A stretch of 64,000 nucleotides of DNA from the NCBI GenBank assembly GCA_002839155.1, contig PGXM01000003.1:124001-188000 (forward strand). The letters are read 5' to 3'. Numbering within the stretch: position 1 is the first letter of the stretch; each line of letters opens with the position of its first letter. A model generated the notes under the pieces. It had not been told where the DNA came from and did no database searches. It saw only the letters and a list, made by a program, of their open reading frames with translations. Origin of the DNA: Tenericutes bacterium HGW-Tenericutes-1. Lineage in GTDB: Bacteria; Bacillota_I; Bacilli_A; Izemoplasmatales; Hujiaoplasmataceae. Below, piece by piece: positions 45,356-55,518 of the stretch. A program made the translations under genes and the position numbers.

Positions 45356-48300
45356 ATGACAACTACTAAGAAACGCTTTAGAGAATGGTTCAAAAAGAAA
45401 TCTGAACTGTTCAATCTTAAAATCACGGAAACATTTGAATCTCCGAAAAAAACGTTCAAATTTTTGGCGATTTTTATATTTTCAATTTTATTCTTTATTG
45501 AGATGGGAATTATTTTAATTAACAATAGTTTTTATAATAATTTCTCTGATGACATCTTGCAATATTACACAATCATTGTTGATTTTGTCGCTCAAATCAA
45601 AGCAGGAACATTATCTTCGTTTAATTTAAATAATTATTTAGGGGCATCGTATTTTTCTGATGTTTATTATGTTCCTTTAGATATTTTCACTGCGATTACA
45701 TTTGTATTAAGCTATATCATGCCTACAGAACTTGCTTATTCCGTTACTGAACTTGTCAAGATATGGGCAGGTGTGATGATATTTGCTTATTACCTCCATA
45801 TGAATAAAATGAAACCTAGAACCATTTTTTGGATGGCGGTTATTTATTTTATCAGTGGTGGCTCCGTTAGTTTCATGGCATTCCCAGCATTCTTATCTTT
45901 AGCGTTTTATTTACCGTTAGGACTGGTTGTTATTCAGTGGTTTATGAGAGGGAAGAAGTGGGTTGTTCCTCTGTATGTCTTGGCTTTAATCCTTTATGAC
46001 TTTTATCTTGGTTATACGGCCATTGCGTTTGTTTCAATTCTTTATATTATTGAAACCATTAAACAACCCGGTTTTAAATTCTTTAAATTTATCTTTGACG
46101 GAATGCAATTCTTAGGATTAATTCTTTTAGGGGTTTTAATGTCAACGGTGATATTATATCCTTCAATCCTCTTTATTTTAGAACAAACATACCGTCCAGA
46201 AAATACATTTAATGGATGGGTCGTTAATGTTTTGGGCCGTGAAATCAAATTATTTCAACCAACAATCTATATCAGAATGTTCGCTAAAATGTTCGTCGAA
46301 CAAAAACCGATTGGCTTTTATGGGTTTGAGAATCATTATGGATTAGAACATTTCTCTTTATTCATATCAGTCATTGGATTTGTCTATATGAATTACATTT
46401 TTTTCATGAAGGATAAAATTGCTTGGATTTATAAAGTCGTCATGTTCTTAGGGATCATCATGATGTTTTTCCCAATCTTTAGTTACGTATTATCTGGAAC
46501 GACGGATGTCCCTTATACAAGATGGATCAATATGTTGCCGCTGGTTCAAATCATGATTTTAGCCCATGTTTTTGACCGCTATGGCTTCGAAGAAATCAAA
46601 ATGAAATGGTTGACTATCCCAATCGTCATTATGCTTGGAACGCTTGCTTATACGATGTATTATTACATCATTCATCTAATGACAGATGTGAAATATGTTT
46701 CTCGTGACGTGATGACAGCTGATACGGTTTTGATGGGTGTTGCAGGACTTATCTTAATTTTGATTATCATTTTTGGATGGCTCAAAAAATATCGATGGAT
46801 TAAAAGAGTCTTTTGGGTCGAATTTATCATTGCGCTTGTTTATATCTATTCAGGTCCATTTTCAATTCGCAATAAAATTGATACATTCCAAGAAATGGAT
46901 GAAATCAGTGATTTCTTAGAAGATTCACTGGATCATGATGAATTTTTCCGAGTGTATGTGGATTTTGAACACTTTGACGCAGAAGACATTAACTTCAACC
47001 GCATGACTCAGTTTCCGACAAACACTGAAATTTTCCATTCGTGGACCGATAAAGAAACGAATGATATTAGTATGCTTTTGTTTAACGTTTATGAGTATCA
47101 AAGTAAAGACAGACTAGATATGTTATCCGTCTATTTAAATCATTTCTTAGGATACAAATATATTTTAATCAGTGCAGAGGCTAATTTGGAGTTGCCTGAG
47201 GATTATTTCACTTTGTTCAGTGAAAATGAAAAATTTAGATTATATGAAATCTTGAACGCTGAACCGTTCCAAGTTTATGAGAGTTTTTTGACCTATAGTC
47301 AATTTAAATCAATGAGTGAGTATTCAAAACAAAAACTGCTATTAATGACGGCTGTTATTGACGCAGAAAGATATGCTACCAATGATTTAAATCTTGAAGA
47401 TCAAAGCCCGATCAATCCAAGTTATTATTCAACAGCTAAATCTTATACATCAGTCACGAATTCAACTGGAACCGCAGTTATGGCTACAGGCATTACAAAT
47501 ACCGAATCAAGAGCTTTTATTCAGTATTCTGCAGAACAATTTAAAGTTGATTTCTCGAGTGGAGCCGCTTATATTCGGTCCACTTATGGCACCATGAGTC
47601 TAGGTGAGAGTGACTATGGTGAAATCTATATGACGTTTGATGATGGGACAAGTCAATCTTGTCAATTAATGACCGATTCTGATTTAACACATCGAATAAA
47701 ATGCGAATTTGGAAAACAACCAAATGCATTCTTCTTCGAGGTCACTGATAATTATAAATCAATTGGAAAAACCGACGTTCGTTTAGAAAGAGCACTTAAT
47801 GGAGCCGCTTATTTAGTGTATGATTTTAATAATATGCAACCCAACGGAATGATGGCTTTTAAGATTGGGTCAATGGATATCGAAAGAGCTTTTATGGTCG
47901 ATATCGACGGAAACGAAACAGAATGCTTTAATAGACTTTGCTTCATAGAATCGCAACCGTTAAGAATCTATGTCTATAAAACGGGAGATATGTATAATTC
48001 TGACAATCTCTTCGCATTAGATTTCCAATATTTATATGATGATTTAAGTGATTACTCCGAAAATATTGAATCAAATATCTCAAACAATCATTCATTAATC
48101 ATTGAAAATGGTAAAATTGAATTATCTTATACAAGAACAAGCGATACTTCATATGATCAAATTGTTATGATTCCAGTTGCATATTCAGAGGAATGGATTG
48201 TAACATCAGAGATTTTATATGAGACGATGTCGGTTTCAGGAGGGTTCTTAGGAATTGTTATTCCTCATGGAACCTCAAATATTGAAGTCAGCTTGAAATT

Positions 48301-48475
48301 TGTACCCGAAGGTTTAAAAGATGGCGCGAAAGCCAGTGTTGCTGGATTTGGAATTTACGCGGTAATCTTCCTTCCTGTTTTATTAGAAAGTCGCAAGCGT
48401 AAACTATTCAGTCGCTTGAAAGAAACGGAGGTCAATGACCATGAAGAAATTGACAATCATAGTACCAGCTTATAA
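45356..48475 (+). CDS. YfhO-like polytopic membrane protein (GT-C-like)
   Basis: Multi-TM N-terminal half, DDILQYYTIIVDFVAQIKAGTLSSFNLNNYLGASYFSDVYYVPLDIFT; large soluble C-terminal domain and terminal TM; upstream of csbB-like GT2. Confidence 0.75.
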   Translation: MTTTKKRFREWFKKKSELFNLKITETFESPKKTFKFLAIFIFSILFFIEMGIILINNSFYNNFSDDILQYYTIIVDFVAQIKAGTLSSFNLNNYLGASYFSDVYYVPLDIFTAITFVLSYIMPTELAYSVTELVKIWAGVMIFAYYLHMNKMKPRTIFWMAVIYFISGGSVSFMAFPAFLSLAFYLPLGLVVIQWFMRGKKWVVPLYVLALILYDFYLGYTAIAFVSILYIIETIKQPGFKFFKFIFDGMQFLGLILLGVLMSTVILYPSILFILEQTYRPENTFNGWVVNVLGREIKLFQPTIYIRMFAKMFVEQKPIGFYGFENHYGLEHFSLFISVIGFVYMNYIFFMKDKIAWIYKVVMFLGIIMMFFPIFSYVLSGTTDVPYTRWINMLPLVQIMILAHVFDRYGFEEIKMKWLTIPIVIMLGTLAYTMYYYIIHLMTDVKYVSRDVMTADTVLMGVAGLILILIIIFGWLKKYRWIKRVFWVEFIIALVYIYSGPFSIRNKIDTFQEMDEISDFLEDSLDHDEFFRVYVDFEHFDAEDINFNRMTQFPTNTEIFHSWTDKETNDISMLLFNVYEYQSKDRLDMLSVYLNHFLGYKYILISAEANLELPEDYFTLFSENEKFRLYEILNAEPFQVYESFLTYSQFKSMSEYSKQKLLLMTAVIDAERYATNDLNLEDQSPINPSYYSTAKSYTSVTNSTGTAVMATGITNTESRAFIQYSAEQFKVDFSSGAAYIRSTYGTMSLGESDYGEIYMTFDDGTSQSCQLMTDSDLTHRIKCEFGKQPNAFFFEVTDNYKSIGKTDVRLERALNGAAYLVYDFNNMQPNGMMAFKIGSMDIERAFMVDIDGNETECFNRLCFIESQPLRIYVYKTGDMYNSDNLFALDFQYLYDDLSDYSENIESNISNNHSLIIENGKIELSYTRTSDTSYDQIVMIPVAYSEEWIVTSEILYETMSVSGGFLGIVIPHGTSNIEVSLKFVPEGLKDGAKASVAGFGIYAVIFLPVLLESRKRKLFSRLKETEVNDHEEIDNHSTSL

Positions 48476-49367
48476 TGAGGAAAAAAACGTTCGTCCGTTT
48501 TATGATGAAACGCTTCAGTACCTGAATAATCCTAATTATGAATATGAGATTTTATATATCAATGATGGATCTAAAGATCAAACATTAAACGAAATCAAGG
48601 CTTTAAAGAAACTTGATCAAAGAGTCTCTTATATTAGTCTTTCAAGAAACTTTGGTAAGGAATCAGCGATGCACGCTGGATTAGTTCATTCTAAGAACAG
48701 CGATGCAGTTATCTTTATCGATTGCGATTTGCAACAACCACCGTTTTTAATTCCTGAAATGATCAAGGAATATGAAGCGGGAAATAAAATTGTTTATACC
48801 AAAGGTAGAAGTAGAAAAGGTGAGCCGAAAATGCGAACGATTTTCGCAAACCTTTATTACAAATTTTATAATTCATATACCGAACAGCCTTTGGATAATG
48901 GTGCAAAAGATTTCCAATTGCTCGATAAACAAGTCGTTGAAGCTTATTTAAGCATCAAAGATAATTACAGATTCATGAAAGGCATATTTTCTTGGGTAGG
49001 TTATCAACGTAAATGTCTTGAGTATGATTTTATTCCAAGAAAATATGGAAAAAGCACATGGAGCTTTAAATCATTATTTAAATATGGATTCAATGGAATG
49101 AATCAGTTCTCAAATGTCATGATGATTTTACCAATATTATCGCTCTTTTTTGGAGTTTTATTATTAACCGGAAATATCTTGTTATTAGTTTTTAATGTCT
49201 TTACGCTTCAAAACTTCTTAATTGGTTTACAAATTAATCTTCTTTGGTTCATGATGTCCTTTCTCGCCTATGGACTATTTTATCTTCAATACGGTTTGAA
49301 ACGACAAGTAATGAACCGACCTATTTATCTTATTGACGAGGACTCGGATTTAAACAATGATAAGTAA
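48441..49367 (+). CDS. GT2 family glycosyltransferase (CsbB/DPM-like polyprenyl-phosphate glycosyltransferase)
   Basis: LTIIVPAYNEEKNVRPFYDE, YINDGSKDQTL, SLSRNFGKESAMHAGL, DCDLQQPP, C-terminal 2 TM. Confidence 0.88.
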   Translation: MKKLTIIVPAYNEEKNVRPFYDETLQYLNNPNYEYEILYINDGSKDQTLNEIKALKKLDQRVSYISLSRNFGKESAMHAGLVHSKNSDAVIFIDCDLQQPPFLIPEMIKEYEAGNKIVYTKGRSRKGEPKMRTIFANLYYKFYNSYTEQPLDNGAKDFQLLDKQVVEAYLSIKDNYRFMKGIFSWVGYQRKCLEYDFIPRKYGKSTWSFKSLFKYGFNGMNQFSNVMMILPILSLFFGVLLLTGNILLLVFNVFTLQNFLIGLQINLLWFMMSFLAYGLFYLQYGLKRQVMNRPIYLIDEDSDLNNDK

Positions 49368-49824
49368 AACTTGGAATTTTATCAAAACAAAGTTTTTAAC
49401 GAAGAAGTTTTTGATCTTCGGATTAATCGGTGTCATTAATACCGGCATTCATATGGGTGTTTATTGGGTCGCATTTAATCCATTAAAACTCGGACCGTTT
49501 TTTTCAAATACGATTGCGTTTATCGTTGCATCGGTATTCTCTTATTTTGCGAATGCGATATTAACCTTCAAACCTAAAAATAAATCTTCAATGCAATTTA
49601 CAGCCGTCATGGCTGTGTTCTTAATGAGATTAATTATTAGTGGTTTATTAACAACTGGTTTTGATTATATTATTCAAAACTGGATAGGAATCGACTACGG
49701 AACTTACAACTGGACGACTATTATTGCGCCGTTCTTCGCATCGGCGTTATTGATTCCGATTGCGTATTTTGCTTTAGAGTATGTGTTTAAGGCTACTGAT
49801 CATCAAAAACAAATACAAGAATAA
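49357..49824 (+). CDS. GtrA family membrane protein
   Basis: FLIFGLIGVINTGIHMGVYWVAF ... NTIAFIVASVFSYFANAILTF: four-TM GtrA pattern. Confidence 0.82.
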   Translation: MISKTWNFIKTKFLTKKFLIFGLIGVINTGIHMGVYWVAFNPLKLGPFFSNTIAFIVASVFSYFANAILTFKPKNKSSMQFTAVMAVFLMRLIISGLLTTGFDYIIQNWIGIDYGTYNWTTIIAPFFASALLIPIAYFALEYVFKATDHQKQIQE

Positions 49825-49982: not shown

Positions 49983-50732
49983 ATGAAAAGTTTTGATTTT
50001 CTTGTTTTAGTTAGTTACCTCTACGCCATTTTTATTTTGACGCTTAGAACCAAGGTCAGTCATAAAGCGATTCGGGTCTTTAAAATCTTTTTGATTGTTC
50101 TTTTTGGATTGTCAGTTTATTACATGTTCGCAGTTGGAGGTTCTGATTTACCACTTATCACAAAACTCGCCACAATCCTTCCGTTAGGGTATGTTTTCGT
50201 TATGATTTATATCAACGAGATAACGACTTTATTAAAAAAATTAGGTGTAGGCGCAACGAAAAAGAAAACAAAAGGATCAAAAACCAATAACGAACTCGCA
50301 AGTAAATTAATATCCACGATTGAGTTTTTATCGAACCGTAAAATCGGAGCGTTAATTACCATCGAAAGAGATATTAAATTATCGGGTTATGTTAATAAAG
50401 CAATGTTAATTAACGCTCCGGTTTCGAGCGAATTATTAGCATCAATCTTCATTCCAACGACCCCTTTACATGATGGAGCGGTTATTATTCGCGACAATAC
50501 AATTGTATGTGCTAAAGCTTATTATCCTTCCACTGAAAGAACGGATTTACCTTTGCATTTTGGTACGAGACATCGCGCCGCGATTGGCATCAGCGAACAA
50601 ACCGATGCTTTAACCGTAGTTGTATCGGAAGAAACGGGTTATGTTAGTCTAACAATTAATCGCCAAATTGACTATAACGTCAGCAAAGAGACACTCAATC
50701 TATATTTCGAAAAGTATCTTAAATTAAGATAA
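49983..50732 (+). CDS. cdaA: Diadenylate cyclase (CdaA type)
   Basis: TPLHDGAVIIRDN and FGTRHRAAIGISEQTDALTVVVSEETG: DisA_N DGA and RHR motifs; N-terminal TM segments. Confidence 0.92.
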   Translation: MKSFDFLVLVSYLYAIFILTLRTKVSHKAIRVFKIFLIVLFGLSVYYMFAVGGSDLPLITKLATILPLGYVFVMIYINEITTLLKKLGVGATKKKTKGSKTNNELASKLISTIEFLSNRKIGALITIERDIKLSGYVNKAMLINAPVSSELLASIFIPTTPLHDGAVIIRDNTIVCAKAYYPSTERTDLPLHFGTRHRAAIGISEQTDALTVVVSEETGYVSLTINRQIDYNVSKETLNLYFEKYLKLR

Positions 50733-50750
50733 AGTGCCTTTGCACTTTTT
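50731..50750 (+). terminator. Terminator after cdaA
   Basis: AAAGTGC cttt GCACTTT TT. Confidence 0.75.
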
Positions 50751-50798
50751 CTTCTTTCATATCAACGTATCATCAATTAAAAAGCGAGGTGAGTGATT

Positions 50799-53147
50799 AT
50801 GGAACAATATGATGTTTTAATTGTTGGCAATGACATCGGATCTTTAGTCACTGCGCTTTTTTTAGCACGTAAAATGCGTAAAGTTGTCGTATTTTCAGAA
50901 CCTGAACCAAAGTCTTTTAAAGATATAATCGAACTTTCAGATGATCAAGGCAATAAATATACTTTTAAAAATCATTTGTTAAACACGGTACCAGGCATTG
51001 AAAAGCCTTCATTGATGTATCGCTTTTTAAATCTTTGCGGATTATCGAATGATCTTCAAACAATCGTATCTATTTCAGATAAAATTGTAAAAAAAGATAA
51101 TACGATGGTTGAAAGACTACAGGATTTTGAAGGATTACTCATTTATTTCGTTAGATACTATCCGAAGCAACGCGATCGAATCCATAAATTTTTCCGAGAT
51201 CTAAAACGACACTTTGATAATTATGTCGAGCAACAATATAGTATGATTGCTAATACGGGATATACGATTTCATCGTTGATGATCGAATGGGGAGATTATA
51301 GTTTAAAAGATTTGTTGCAAAAGTATTTTACTGATCCGGCATTAATCGATGAGTTCATGTATCACCCTTCGATTAACGGACTCAATATGAATGAGGTTTC
51401 TTGTTATAACTATTTTATTAATTTCTTTACCGGCGTTTATTCGAAAGAATACTATTTAAATCACAGCATTGAAGATATTCGTAAATTACTATTAACTAAG
51501 TTGTCTGCGATTAATCGCAATATCATTCAAAACCGGACGATTAAACAAATCATTCTTGATTCAGATGGAACGGTTTTAAAAGTTATCGCTGATAATTCTA
51601 ATGAATTTCATGCAAAACATTATGTTATTGCTGGAAAACCTCATGATGTGTATCAAAACTATTTTCCGGAATTAGATAAAGAATTACTTGAAGTATTAAA
51701 ATATTATCCTCATATTGAAACAAATAAAAGAATCCAACCGATTTATCTTGGTTTAAATCACAAACCAGAATCCATTGGCATAGATTCTTTGAATTACTTC
51801 TTTGAGACCAATGAAAATGAATCGGTTAAATTAGTTCGCATGTTCAATGAGAAACTTTTCAATAAGGATGCATGTTCTAATAAAAACGGTGCAATAATTC
51901 TTGAAGTAGTTTATGATGAAGGAACCAAAATTGATATTCCTAAAATCATATCTCAATTAGAGGATATTTTCCCTAAATTAGCTAAATCTATAGCAGTGTC
52001 TAAATTAGGAAAAATCAGACCTATTTACTCAATGCTTTCATTGCCCGAAGTCAGAAAAGGATTATCGATTGATGATCAAATTGCCATCGAAACCTTATCG
52101 CGGCAACAAATCTTCGAGAACTTATATTTGATTGGTGATTGGTTAAGACCAGAAGCGGGGTTATTCGGTTTATTTCAGGCGGGTATCATTTATGGTGACG
52201 CAATTGAAGAAAAACTGTATTACGGCGATGACGATGATGAATTTTTCTATTTATCGAATGATGAAATAATGATGATGTTACGCCATAATTATGGTAAAAA
52301 ACTATTAGGAAAAACGGAAAAACACATCAACTTTCATATTGGTAAAAGTAATTATTTTATTCGGACGAAAGCGAAAAATATTACCGTTCACCGTGGAGAG
52401 TATTTTAGTCCAGATTTATCGATTTATACCACAAATGATAAATTATCGAGTTTATTACTGAAAAAAACCACATTGGAAGATGTATTAAAGAGTGGTGGAT
52501 TTAAATATCAAGGAAAAGAATCAGACTTGTTTGATATCGCTGAAGCTTTTAATTTAGATGATTATAAAGAAGAAGATACTTCATATCAACCAAAATCCAA
52601 GATTTATTTCTTGGGGGTGAAGTTTTTATTCTTCTATCTCATGATTTGGAGTGCAATGGCATTTCTATCCAATTTCATTAAGATTTTATGGGTAGCTCCA
52701 TTTGCGTTAATACTGACATTATTAACCACTTACACCAAGTATTTAAAGTATCGCGATATTTCTTGGTTTGAGTATTTGATGAATTCATTGCTAGCTTTAA
52801 TTGTTTTAACATCTGCGCTATGGCCAGCCTTTAACAACGCTTTATCAGACGATATATATCTTGGGATGATGGCACTTGTCTTTCTAATCTCTTGGATTGT
52901 GAACAAGCCGATTGTTCATGATTTCCATCAATATGATTTCAAACGTGACTATGCGCAATCTTCCTTATTCAAAGTCATCAATAACGGGTTAACGCTCGTT
53001 TGGTCATTGATTTTTATATCCATATTAGTGTTCACATATGTTACAGGTGAGCGTTATATTTCAGCGCTTTATAATTTGGTTTTTTTAGGGTTCTTTATGA
53101 CTTATTTTTACCCCGTTTTATACGTTAGGGGAAACATCAAAAGTTAA
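50799..53147 (+). CDS. FAD-dependent oxidoreductase (phytoene-desaturase/amine-oxidase-like fold) fused to SCP2-like segment and C-terminal membrane domain
   Basis: DVLIVGNDIGSLVTALFLARKMRKVVVFSEPEP Rossmann; NLYLIGDWLRPEAGLFGLFQAGIIYGDAI C-terminal FAD motif; FSPDLSIYTTNDKLSSLLLKKTTLEDVLKSGGFKYQGKESDLFDIAEAF SCP2-like; ~6 TM C-terminus. Confidence 0.65.
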   Translation: MEQYDVLIVGNDIGSLVTALFLARKMRKVVVFSEPEPKSFKDIIELSDDQGNKYTFKNHLLNTVPGIEKPSLMYRFLNLCGLSNDLQTIVSISDKIVKKDNTMVERLQDFEGLLIYFVRYYPKQRDRIHKFFRDLKRHFDNYVEQQYSMIANTGYTISSLMIEWGDYSLKDLLQKYFTDPALIDEFMYHPSINGLNMNEVSCYNYFINFFTGVYSKEYYLNHSIEDIRKLLLTKLSAINRNIIQNRTIKQIILDSDGTVLKVIADNSNEFHAKHYVIAGKPHDVYQNYFPELDKELLEVLKYYPHIETNKRIQPIYLGLNHKPESIGIDSLNYFFETNENESVKLVRMFNEKLFNKDACSNKNGAIILEVVYDEGTKIDIPKIISQLEDIFPKLAKSIAVSKLGKIRPIYSMLSLPEVRKGLSIDDQIAIETLSRQQIFENLYLIGDWLRPEAGLFGLFQAGIIYGDAIEEKLYYGDDDDEFFYLSNDEIMMMLRHNYGKKLLGKTEKHINFHIGKSNYFIRTKAKNITVHRGEYFSPDLSIYTTNDKLSSLLLKKTTLEDVLKSGGFKYQGKESDLFDIAEAFNLDDYKEEDTSYQPKSKIYFLGVKFLFFYLMIWSAMAFLSNFIKILWVAPFALILTLLTTYTKYLKYRDISWFEYLMNSLLALIVLTSALWPAFNNALSDDIYLGMMALVFLISWIVNKPIVHDFHQYDFKRDYAQSSLFKVINNGLTLVWSLIFISILVFTYVTGERYISALYNLVFLGFFMTYFYPVLYVRGNIKS

Positions 53148-53173: not shown

Positions 53174-54346
53174 ATGAACGACATACTTTTATACGCATCA
53201 TTCGCCCTAGGAGTTGTACTAACGATACTATCCTCCTTGATTTATAAGAAATGGCGAATTTGGAAAATAATTGTTTTGATTTTATTGGGTGGAGCTTACG
53301 CTATCTACCGTCTAAAACCTGAATGGATTCCATTAATTTCGACTGAGTTGTTTATCGAATATTATGGATATGTTTTGTATTTAGCGGTTATTCTTATTGC
53401 CATTTTCTTTACTTCAAAAATTCGAATTACCCAGAATTTAACGGATTATGATTTCTTTGAAATGGAAAAAGAATTAGATGAAATCAAATCCTCATCTGAA
53501 TTACTACGTTTAAGATATATTTCTACGATTGGTTTGGTACCTGATGCACTATTATTCTACAATGATGATTTAAATGGCTTTTTCGTCACAGAACAATTTC
53601 AAAGAATTATTGATAAAAAGCAAACTGAATTTACGTTAGATGAATACGCTGAATTAATTCACAATGATGACCGTAATCAATATCTCACAACGATTCGGAA
53701 AGTCAGTAAAAAAACACCGGCATTTGATTTTAAATACCGCGTATTACGCAATGGGGTTTATATTTGGGTTGAAGAGCGCGCAAAAGTCTTTGAGTTTGAT
53801 AAAAAGATTCAATTGATATCAATCATTAAAGGCGTTGATATGAAGTTATTCCCTGAAACGTTGATTCATGAAATTGATTCCTTACCCACTGAACAACATC
53901 TTATTCAATATTTAACACAGGCCTCCAAAGAACCAGAAGCTTTTTACCTCGTCATGATTCAATTAACCAATATTCCCGATATCAATCAAAGATTTGGTCG
54001 GGACGTTGGGAATTTAATGATAGCGGAATATATCAAAAAAATGCGATACCATTTTGCGAAAGATATGAATTCAATTTTTAGAATTACAGGTATTCAATTT
54101 GCGTTGATTATCAAAGAACAACGCAAATACGATGTCTTATTACGAGCATTGCAAAGTGGCGGCGATTTAATCAATTTAGCGATTAATATTGGCGGAATCC
54201 AACAAGTTGTTTATCCTAATTTAGGTGTCATTAAACACGAACCTTGGTCTACTTATTCATTGAATGAATTTGTTGGTTTAGCTTCAAAAGCCCTAGATGA
54301 AGCAATTCGTAATCCTAAGAAAAATTACTCCATATTTGGTGAATAA
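53174..54346 (+). CDS. Membrane PAS + degenerate GGDEF domain protein
   Basis: Three N-terminal TMs; PAS-like FDFKYRVLRNGVYIWVEERAKVFEF; GGDEF-fold with FRITGIQFALII in place of RxGGDEF. Confidence 0.65.
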   Translation: MNDILLYASFALGVVLTILSSLIYKKWRIWKIIVLILLGGAYAIYRLKPEWIPLISTELFIEYYGYVLYLAVILIAIFFTSKIRITQNLTDYDFFEMEKELDEIKSSSELLRLRYISTIGLVPDALLFYNDDLNGFFVTEQFQRIIDKKQTEFTLDEYAELIHNDDRNQYLTTIRKVSKKTPAFDFKYRVLRNGVYIWVEERAKVFEFDKKIQLISIIKGVDMKLFPETLIHEIDSLPTEQHLIQYLTQASKEPEAFYLVMIQLTNIPDINQRFGRDVGNLMIAEYIKKMRYHFAKDMNSIFRITGIQFALIIKEQRKYDVLLRALQSGGDLINLAINIGGIQQVVYPNLGVIKHEPWSTYSLNEFVGLASKALDEAIRNPKKNYSIFGE

Positions 54347-54376
54347 TCATCATAAGTAACAATTGTGAGGTGTGAG

Positions 54377-55033
54377 ATGTATACAGCTTTGATTGTCGCA
54401 GCGGGAGCGGGATCTCGTGTTGATTTAGGATATAATAAAGTCTTTTATGAAGTTCATTCAAAACCGATTCTTTTATTTAGCGTGGATCAATTTATCAAAG
54501 ATAGTGAATTTTCTGAGATTATCGTTGTTTACGCTAAAGGCGAATATGAGCGAATGAAGGATGTTTTGAAGAACCGTGAAATAATCCTCATCGAAGGTGG
54601 AACAACACGCCAAGAGAGCGTTTATAACGGTTTAAAAGCCGTTACGAATGCGGTGGTATTTATTCATGATGGAGCGAGACCTAATTTAAAAACTCAGTAT
54701 TTAGAACAGTTAAAATCAAAACTCTGTGAAGCGCAAGCGTTGACGCTTGCGACGAAATCAAAAGATACGATTAAGATTGTTCAAAACGGAAAAATCATGA
54801 GTGACGTTCCTAGAGATCAAAGTTATCTCATTCAAACTCCTCAAGTCTTTATTACGGATGAAATAAAAAAGGCCCATGAAGCTTTTTTAAAGTCAGATAG
54901 ATTATTTACTGATGACACAGCCATTTATATGGCGTATAATCAAGGTGTTGTTTTAATCGTTGAAGGCGACGATGAAAATATCAAAGTCACAACCAAATTT
55001 GATTTGTTAAAATTGGAGGATATTTTATGTTAA
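54377..55033 (+). CDS. ispD: 2-C-methyl-D-erythritol 4-phosphate cytidylyltransferase
   Basis: ALIVAAGAGSRVDLGYNKVF, VFIHDGARPNL, PRDQSYLIQTPQVF, DDTAIYMAY; upstream of ispF. Confidence 0.93.
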   Translation: MYTALIVAAGAGSRVDLGYNKVFYEVHSKPILLFSVDQFIKDSEFSEIIVVYAKGEYERMKDVLKNREIILIEGGTTRQESVYNGLKAVTNAVVFIHDGARPNLKTQYLEQLKSKLCEAQALTLATKSKDTIKIVQNGKIMSDVPRDQSYLIQTPQVFITDEIKKAHEAFLKSDRLFTDDTAIYMAYNQGVVLIVEGDDENIKVTTKFDLLKLEDILC

Positions 55034-55518
55034 GGATTGGTTTTTCAAAAGACATTCACCCACTTGCAGAAGGAAGACCTTTTATTTTAGGTGGAATTAA
55101 ACTCGATCATCCAAAGGGACCTGTTGGACATTCTGATGCGGATTGTTTATTGCACGCTATCGCAGAATCGATATTAGGAGCGATGGCATTGGGTGATTTA
55201 GGGAAATTTTTCCCAGACACAGATCCCAAATATAAAAATTATGATTCATCGCTCATCTTACAAGAAGTCTATAATTATATTGAAAGTAAAGGGTACGTAG
55301 TTAAAAATCTTGATTGTATGGTTTCATTAGAAAAACCAAAATTAAGACCTTACGTCGATGAAATGAGAAAACACATCGCGGGTATCTTAAATATTGATAT
55401 CGGAGAAGTTTCTGTGAAAGCAACGACATTTGAAGGTTTGGGTATTGTTGGAGAAGAAAAAGCGATTATTTGTGAAGCAATTGTCATGTTGGAATCTGAT
55501 GCAATTATCATGTTATAA
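55027..55518 (+). CDS. ispF: 2-C-methyl-D-erythritol 2,4-cyclodiphosphate synthase
   Basis: GFSKDIHPLAEGRPFILGGI, GHSDADCLLHAIAESILGAMALGDLGKFFPDTD, VKATTFEGLGIVGEEKAI. Confidence 0.96.
   Translation: MLRIGFSKDIHPLAEGRPFILGGIKLDHPKGPVGHSDADCLLHAIAESILGAMALGDLGKFFPDTDPKYKNYDSSLILQEVYNYIESKGYVVKNLDCMVSLEKPKLRPYVDEMRKHIAGILNIDIGEVSVKATTFEGLGIVGEEKAIICEAIVMLESDAIIML

Follow-up and report, generated by a model that had tools for sequence, protein, structure and literature searches.

A three-part membrane protein with a flavoprotein fold and an SCP2-like fold encoded next to cdaA in Candidatus Izemoplasmatales

Directly 3' of the diadenylate cyclase gene cdaA, Tenericutes bacterium HGW-Tenericutes-1 encodes a 782-residue membrane protein that joins a flavoprotein fold and an SCP2-like fold to a set of membrane helices. 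What is this protein, and what might it do beside a c-di-AMP synthase? Its host belongs to Candidatus Izemoplasmatales, a mostly uncultured order. We analysed the gene within a stretch of 64,000 nucleotides (contig PGXM01000003.1, positions 124,001 to 188,000), referred to below as the window, whose numbering is used throughout. A sequence-only reading had described a novel-looking fusion of an FAD oxidoreductase, an SCP2-like segment and a six-helix membrane domain. The three-part architecture is borne out, with borders refined to residues 1-480, 484-585 and 605-778:

50799..53147, + strand: fusion ORF of 782 aa, with flavoprotein fold, SCP2-like fold and six membrane helices
50799..52238, + strand: CrtI/MAO-type FAD-fold domain with degenerate cofactor motifs, residues 1-480 (Foldseek, motif counts, hhalign)
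50826..50843, + strand: GNDIGS in place of GxGxxG, residues 10-15 (motif counts)
52149..52160, + strand: the family's PEAG signature, C-terminal within the FAD fold, residues 451-454 (E452 in 31/31 members)
52248..52553, + strand: SCP2-like fold, putatively lipid-binding, residues 484-585, the slowest-evolving domain (Foldseek, Pfam, dN)
52611..53132, + strand: six predicted transmembrane helices, residues 605-778 (structure model; weak VC0807 similarity)

A maintained fusion within one order

The ORF runs uninterrupted from the ATG at 50799 to a stop codon ending at 53147. A ribosome-binding site, AGGTGAG, lies just 5' of this ATG, and a GTG at 50793 offers an alternative start that would give a fusion of 784 aa. 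Searching with the single sequence yielded a match in 46 of 61 related genomes and true fusions, almost always full length, in 44 of them; this count leaves out G034 and G040, whose matches are CrtI-like proteins some 510 aa long. When about 85,000 species were scanned, 43 loci came back, most of them from metagenome-assembled genomes that bear the labels Izemoplasmatales, Izimaplasma, Tenericutes, Mycoplasmatota, Bacilli or Bacillales. The same architecture thus recurs at full length throughout Izemoplasmatales; the sequence-only reading had suggested looking for it in other Mycoplasmatota. Among 395 genomes of the class searched with a profile, those outside the order yielded only partial N-terminal CrtI-like matches and no relative of full length. 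A wider spread in the class was rejected, as the best outside match (E 1e-36, in G082) is a CrtISO-like protein of the ordinary kind, whose motif is intact and which has neither an SCP2 nor a membrane part.

Comparison with the nearest relative gives dN values of 0.05-0.18 with dS above 1, indicating strong purifying selection in each segment; dN is lowest in the SCP2-like segment (0.047, against 0.07-0.18 for the others). Since full-length relatives occur across the order and every segment is under purifying selection, the three-part fusion is real, old and maintained. That the ORF is two genes joined in error by assembly or gene prediction, a view whose sole support is the unusual architecture, is scarcely conceivable: it is ruled out by the same full-length ORF in dozens of independently assembled genomes, single-contig chromosomes included, and selection across all segments also speaks against it. 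A literature search found no paper on the fusion protein or on c-di-AMP in Izemoplasmatales. No well-known architecture with an assigned function emerged either, in keeping with the novelty first surmised, and the fusion is a previously undescribed three-part membrane protein of Candidatus Izemoplasmatales.

Folds and cofactor motifs

Using a 31-sequence alignment, AlphaFold2 modelled the whole fusion with a pLDDT of 87 and a pTM of 0.71, and the C-terminal part alone with values of 91 and 0.85. All three segments are modelled, and Foldseek comparison with the PDB confirms the first two folds. Residues 1-480 match 4rep (E 1e-15), CrtI (4dgk, E 3e-14) and Rab GDI (3p1w, E 1e-12), the best match being a carotenoid desaturase, and they also group with monoamine oxidases and protoporphyrinogen oxidase; hhalign relates them to the host's own CrtI-like protein with an E-value of 3e-10. 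The phytoene-desaturase/amine-oxidase-like N-terminus proposed earlier is thereby confirmed as a CrtI/MAO-type fold. The domain shares the overall fold of the CrtI/CrtISO/MAO superfamily (TIGR02734, TIGR02730), and its G...PEAG...G...D segment sits at the C-terminal FAD-binding segment of that superfamily. Unlike these enzymes, however, it scores far under the family cut-offs, its GxGxxG is degenerate, the GG after the second strand is missing, and it continues into SCP2-like and membrane domains in a host without phytoene synthase.

The loss of cofactor motifs differs between lineages. GNDIGS, which lies within the N-terminus quoted in the sequence-only reading, is not an intact dinucleotide-binding motif. 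In the window's family this motif is mostly G-x-D/N-x-x-S/A, against G-x-G-x-x-G in ordinary relatives; position 12, that of the second glycine, is D or N in 21/21 members of the family, and 8/8 members of the Izemoplasmataceae core have G there. Alignment with intact relatives shows that the window's family also lacks their GG after the second strand, and it has no conserved acid there, while the Izemoplasmataceae core keeps both G-x-G and a glutamate after that strand. Towards the C-terminus of the FAD fold, N441, G446 and D467 are almost invariant alongside E452. Clade g18 retains the full architecture (hhalign E 3e-27 over residues 1-772) with the flavin signatures gone at both ends, the PEAG signature included. 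The host's separate CrtI-like protein (L128) has its cofactor motifs intact. Judged by these residues, flavin chemistry has likely been lost in the window's family, and the Izemoplasmataceae core, with its G-x-G and glutamate, may still bind flavin. The eroded motifs, together with a clade that keeps the architecture without them, argue for a pseudo-oxidoreductase.

The same residues can be read the other way. The fusion could still be a working flavoenzyme, whose SCP2-like module presents a membrane lipid to the CrtI/MAO-type domain; the lipid would be an unsaturated acyl or polyprenyl chain rather than a carotenoid, and would be reduced, isomerised or desaturated. The high confidence of the fold, the purifying selection over the FAD domain, the residues retained in the Izemoplasmataceae core and the near-invariance of N441, G446, E452 and D467 all speak for an enzyme. 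Against this stand the window's family, in which the second glycine is uniformly D or N, the acid is not conserved and the GG is lost, and a clade, g18, that dispenses even with PEAG, so that we consider a working enzyme rather unlikely.

The more specific proposal of the earlier reading, an oxidoreductase of polyprenoid, carotenoid or sterol-like lipids, is not supported. Far less probable than a working enzyme of the kind just described is one that uses FAD to desaturate or isomerise carotenoids or sterols. It would agree with the top Foldseek match and with weak matches of members to the crtI and carotenoid isomerase families (best E 2e-7; TIGR02734 is matched by 11/31). However, the window protein reaches 20.8 bits against a TIGR02730 cut-off of 586.9, its FAD residues are degenerate, and the motifs are intact in another, CrtI-like protein of the host. 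Squalene/phytoene synthase (PF00494) was found in none of the 34 genomes of the host's family, the host included, with positive controls. It occurs in 11 genomes, namely in all seven that have cdaA but lack the fusion and in only 4 of the 44 that have it. Most of these genomes fall in one clade of the tree (g16, g17, g18, g20, g21, g22), where the fusion either disappeared, on at least two occasions, or became highly divergent, and this negative association, suggestive as it is, therefore reflects one clade and is not independent evidence. On motif loss, family scores and the missing synthase, the carotenoid or sterol enzyme is rejected and close to refuted, and carotenoids are very unlikely to be the fusion's usual substrate.

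In two loci of the clade in which the fusion is lost or eroded (L118 and L120), the squalene/phytoene synthase gene adjoins genes that look, by sequence, like phytol/dolichol-kinase-type and DUF92-type membrane proteins.

Residues 484-585 match the C-terminus of the alkylsulfatases SdsA1/Pisa1, mosquito SCP-2L2 and UbiJ, with Foldseek E-values of 1e-4 to 1e-3, a probability of 1.00 for the matches to SdsA1, SCP-2L2 and UbiJ, and TM-scores by target of up to 0.67. Pfam finds Alkyl_sulf_C in 29/31 members and SCP2 in 17/31, all weakly, and the window segment stays below the gathering cut-offs of both (PF02036 SCP2, 13.7 against 21.3 bits; PF14864 Alkyl_sulf_C, 22.8 against 27 bits). The segment thus resembles SCP2-fold proteins in fold and, weakly, in sequence; it differs in these sub-threshold scores and in its place inside a fusion, with a flavoprotein fold before it and membrane helices after it. 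The SCP2 similarity first placed at about 52310-52560 stands, with a fold that spans 52248-52553. By analogy of its predicted fold, this domain may bind lipid.

The proposed six-helix C-terminal membrane anchor is likewise recovered, with helices at residues 605-778. Foldseek returned no PDB match for this domain. Similarity to the uncharacterised VC0807 family (NF041646) is weak: the window protein scores 14.6 bits against a cut-off of 65, and 8/31 members match (best E 2e-7). A literature search on VC0807 retrieved nothing.

The cdaA locus and its gene order

Throughout the order, the genes are arranged as cdaA - fusion - PAS/degenerate-GGDEF - ispD - ispF, and those upstream of cdaA vary by family. 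Around the fusion, the window contains:

49983..50732, + strand: cdaA, membrane diadenylate cyclase, the c-di-AMP synthase (Pfam DAC E 8e-39; TIGR00159)
50731..50748, + strand: terminator-like hairpin AAAGTGC-CTTT-GCACTTT with a T-rich tail, directly 3' of cdaA (sequence; 33/35 loci)
53174..54346, + strand: TM-PAS-degenerate GGDEF protein, after a 26 nt gap 3' of the fusion (Pfam PAS_3 and GGDEF)
54086..54100, + strand: TGIQF, the degenerate GGDEF active-site motif of that protein (motif inspection)
54365..55033, + strand: ispD, MEP pathway (match to E. coli ispD, NC_000913; synteny)
55027..55518, + strand: ispF, MEP pathway (match to E. coli ispF, NC_000913; synteny)

The cyclase scores 181.8 bits (E 1e-53) against the NCBIfam CdaA model TIGR00159, just below the cut-off of 188.8, and keeps the active-site motifs DGA and RHR, which are present in 38/40 and 40/40 relatives, respectively. 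In all 40 PAS/degenerate-GGDEF proteins, the GGDEF motif is replaced by TGIxF, SGIxF, QGILF or GGINF. The possibility that this gene is the genome's own truncated GdpP was rejected, given a separate full GdpP fused to ribosomal protein L9.

In the 35 loci measured, the fusion always lies on the cdaA strand and is the next gene, except in L037, where one ORF intervenes. The gap between fusion and PAS/degenerate-GGDEF gene is -8 to 29 nt, and that between cdaA and fusion 27 to 962 nt, with 156-962 nt in five loci of family f3. A hairpin equivalent to that of the window occurs in 33/35 loci, with base changes that preserve pairing, and could act as a terminator or attenuator ahead of the following genes. 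Given this hairpin and the long gaps in f3, simple co-transcription of cdaA with the fusion is improbable, which weakens the idea of a simple operon; the fusion would probably be transcribed with the PAS/degenerate-GGDEF gene, and with cdaA only partly, if at all. In six measured loci that have cdaA but lack the fusion, cdaA and the PAS/degenerate-GGDEF gene lie 16-26 nt apart with no terminator, a spacing that suggests that the pseudo-GGDEF protein itself belongs to the c-di-AMP module.

The earlier reading had taken the nearby ispD and ispF as a functional hint. Their neighbourhood is indeed conserved, about as well as that of cdaA, but cdaA and the PAS/degenerate-GGDEF gene adjoin the fusion more closely. 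As both cdaA and ispD/ispF are conserved neighbours, adjacency alone cannot tell which is the fusion's partner. Here the losses are more informative. All 44 fusion-bearing genomes have cdaA, and the fusion never occurs without it. In family f2, all seven genomes lack both a diadenylate cyclase domain and the fusion and retain the PAS/degenerate-GGDEF gene and ispF; the order maf-like gene - PAS/degenerate-GGDEF - ispD - ispF is intact in the five loci read. On the tree, f2 and the window's family are sisters (bootstrap 99), so this pattern is read as a joint loss of cdaA and the fusion, a single event, and not as primitive absence. That ispD and ispF stayed when the fusion vanished with cdaA tells against them as the functional hint.

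Two further observations concern f2. The whole family (G034, G036, G038, G040, G042, G044, G046) seems to live without c-di-AMP synthesis, and its PAS/degenerate-GGDEF protein is kept where both cdaA and the fusion are lost. At L044:4448-7817, a gene for a CrtI/CrtISO-like protein is followed by one resembling flavin/2Fe-2S NADH oxidoreductases, a possible redox pair in a family that has no phytoene synthase.

A possible accessory of the c-di-AMP module

In Firmicutes, the gene after cdaA is that of the membrane regulator CdaR, which in Listeria contacts CdaA via the membrane region of the latter (PMC8573169). In the genome G082, which belongs to the same class, a YbbR protein gene and a GlmM-like gene come after cdaA, the arrangement described for Firmicutes (PMC8573169). 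CdaR is present in 61/198 genomes of the class; in all 61 related genomes, CdaR (YbbR, PF07949) is absent, with a positive B. subtilis control, and the fusion protein itself has no YbbR domain match. The peptidoglycan loss reported for Izemoplasmatales (PMC10868615) would fit the missing cdaR-glmM arrangement. Like CdaR, the fusion is a membrane protein encoded directly 3' of cdaA and found only with cdaA. Unlike CdaR, it has cytosolic folds in place of YbbR repeats, its gene is parted from cdaA by a hairpin, and no glmM follows.

Taken together, these data lead us to favour, tentatively, a membrane-anchored, lipid-binding pseudo-oxidoreductase that serves, in CdaR's place, as an accessory regulator of the c-di-AMP module, which we infer to comprise CdaA and the PAS/degenerate-GGDEF protein. 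A link to c-di-AMP is suggested by the strict co-occurrence with cdaA, the joint loss in f2, the absence of CdaR and the gene order. The partnership with CdaA, their physical contact and the direction of regulation are put forward on these grounds, and are weakened by the hairpin, by the long f3 gaps, by f2 being a single loss, and by seven genomes of three genera that have cdaA without the fusion, from which it follows that CdaA can work without it. The six helices would anchor the fusion in the membrane, next to those of CdaA itself. A membrane lipid would be taken up by the cytosolic SCP2-like fold and probably also by the hydrophobic pocket of the former flavoenzyme, and lipid occupancy or membrane state would alter the contact with CdaA or with the PAS/degenerate-GGDEF protein and so tune c-di-AMP synthesis. 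Such tuning would matter where a bare membrane bears turgor.

Precedents exist for parts of this proposal. The likeness of GDI to flavoproteins has been noted (PMC4915359); Rab GDI/REP shares the flavoprotein fold (Foldseek 3p1w), which in the proposed accessory regulator would hold lipid without flavin. The fusion differs in being membrane-anchored, in having no demonstrated sequence relationship to these proteins, and in a host with no known prenylated GTPase. In the Ubi metabolon, the flavoenzymes UbiI, UbiH and UbiF work with the SCP2 protein UbiJ (PMC9499169). By analogy, a flavoprotein domain and an SCP2 domain may act together on a membrane lipid in the fusion too, although in the metabolon they are separate polypeptides and the flavoproteins are of another class.

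The same precedents would serve a carrier or chaperone for undecaprenyl-phosphate or another MEP-derived isoprenoid, working like Rab GDI/REP, as a FAD fold that binds a prenyl chain without FAD, or like UbiJ, as an SCP2 protein for polyprenyl intermediates, with its place near cdaA incidental. Besides the Foldseek matches to Rab GDI and UbiJ, the conserved ispD/ispF downstream would suit such a carrier, as would the genes for a GT2, a GtrA-type and a large membrane protein just upstream in the window's family, and the loss or erosion of the fusion in the clade that has squalene/phytoene synthase. However, f2 keeps ispD/ispF although the fusion is gone, and the GT2/GtrA neighbours are confined to the window's family and absent in Izemoplasmataceae. 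With cdaA proximity as mere coincidence, we hold this explanation to be unlikely, but it overlaps with that of a c-di-AMP accessory and both can be true.

Even for model Bacilli it is unsettled what regulates CdaA, and the mode of action of CdaR is stated to be unclear (PMC8573169). Lacking both peptidoglycan and CdaR, and with another membrane protein in CdaR's place, the order offers a natural test of the inputs to CdaA. If the fusion binds lipid and shifts c-di-AMP, the state of the membrane would feed directly into turgor signalling in wall-less cells, and a bacterial flavoenzyme fold would have been reused as a non-redox, lipid-binding regulator. The fuller scenario, that this wall-less order replaced CdaR with a new membrane lipid sensor made of a retired carotenoid-desaturase-like flavoenzyme, an SCP2-like module and six membrane spans, is more doubtful than the accessory role itself; if true, it would link the lipid state of the membrane to the second messenger that controls turgor.

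Two observations on the surroundings may be added. At 45356-49824, genes for a large membrane protein, a PgfS/CsbB-like GT2 and a GtrA-type protein form a set that resembles polyprenyl-phosphate-sugar glycosylation genes; in no family but the window's do they precede cdaA. A domain search found no DHHA2, a result without bearing on c-di-AMP here. Turnover of c-di-AMP is otherwise ordinary in the host: PgpH (PF07698) is absent from the 61 genomes, and a GdpP-type phosphodiesterase is present, fused in one ORF to ribosomal protein L9 (L127:626-3088, G000:C14; 672 against 707 bits for NCBIfam PRK14538), a known but odd combination.
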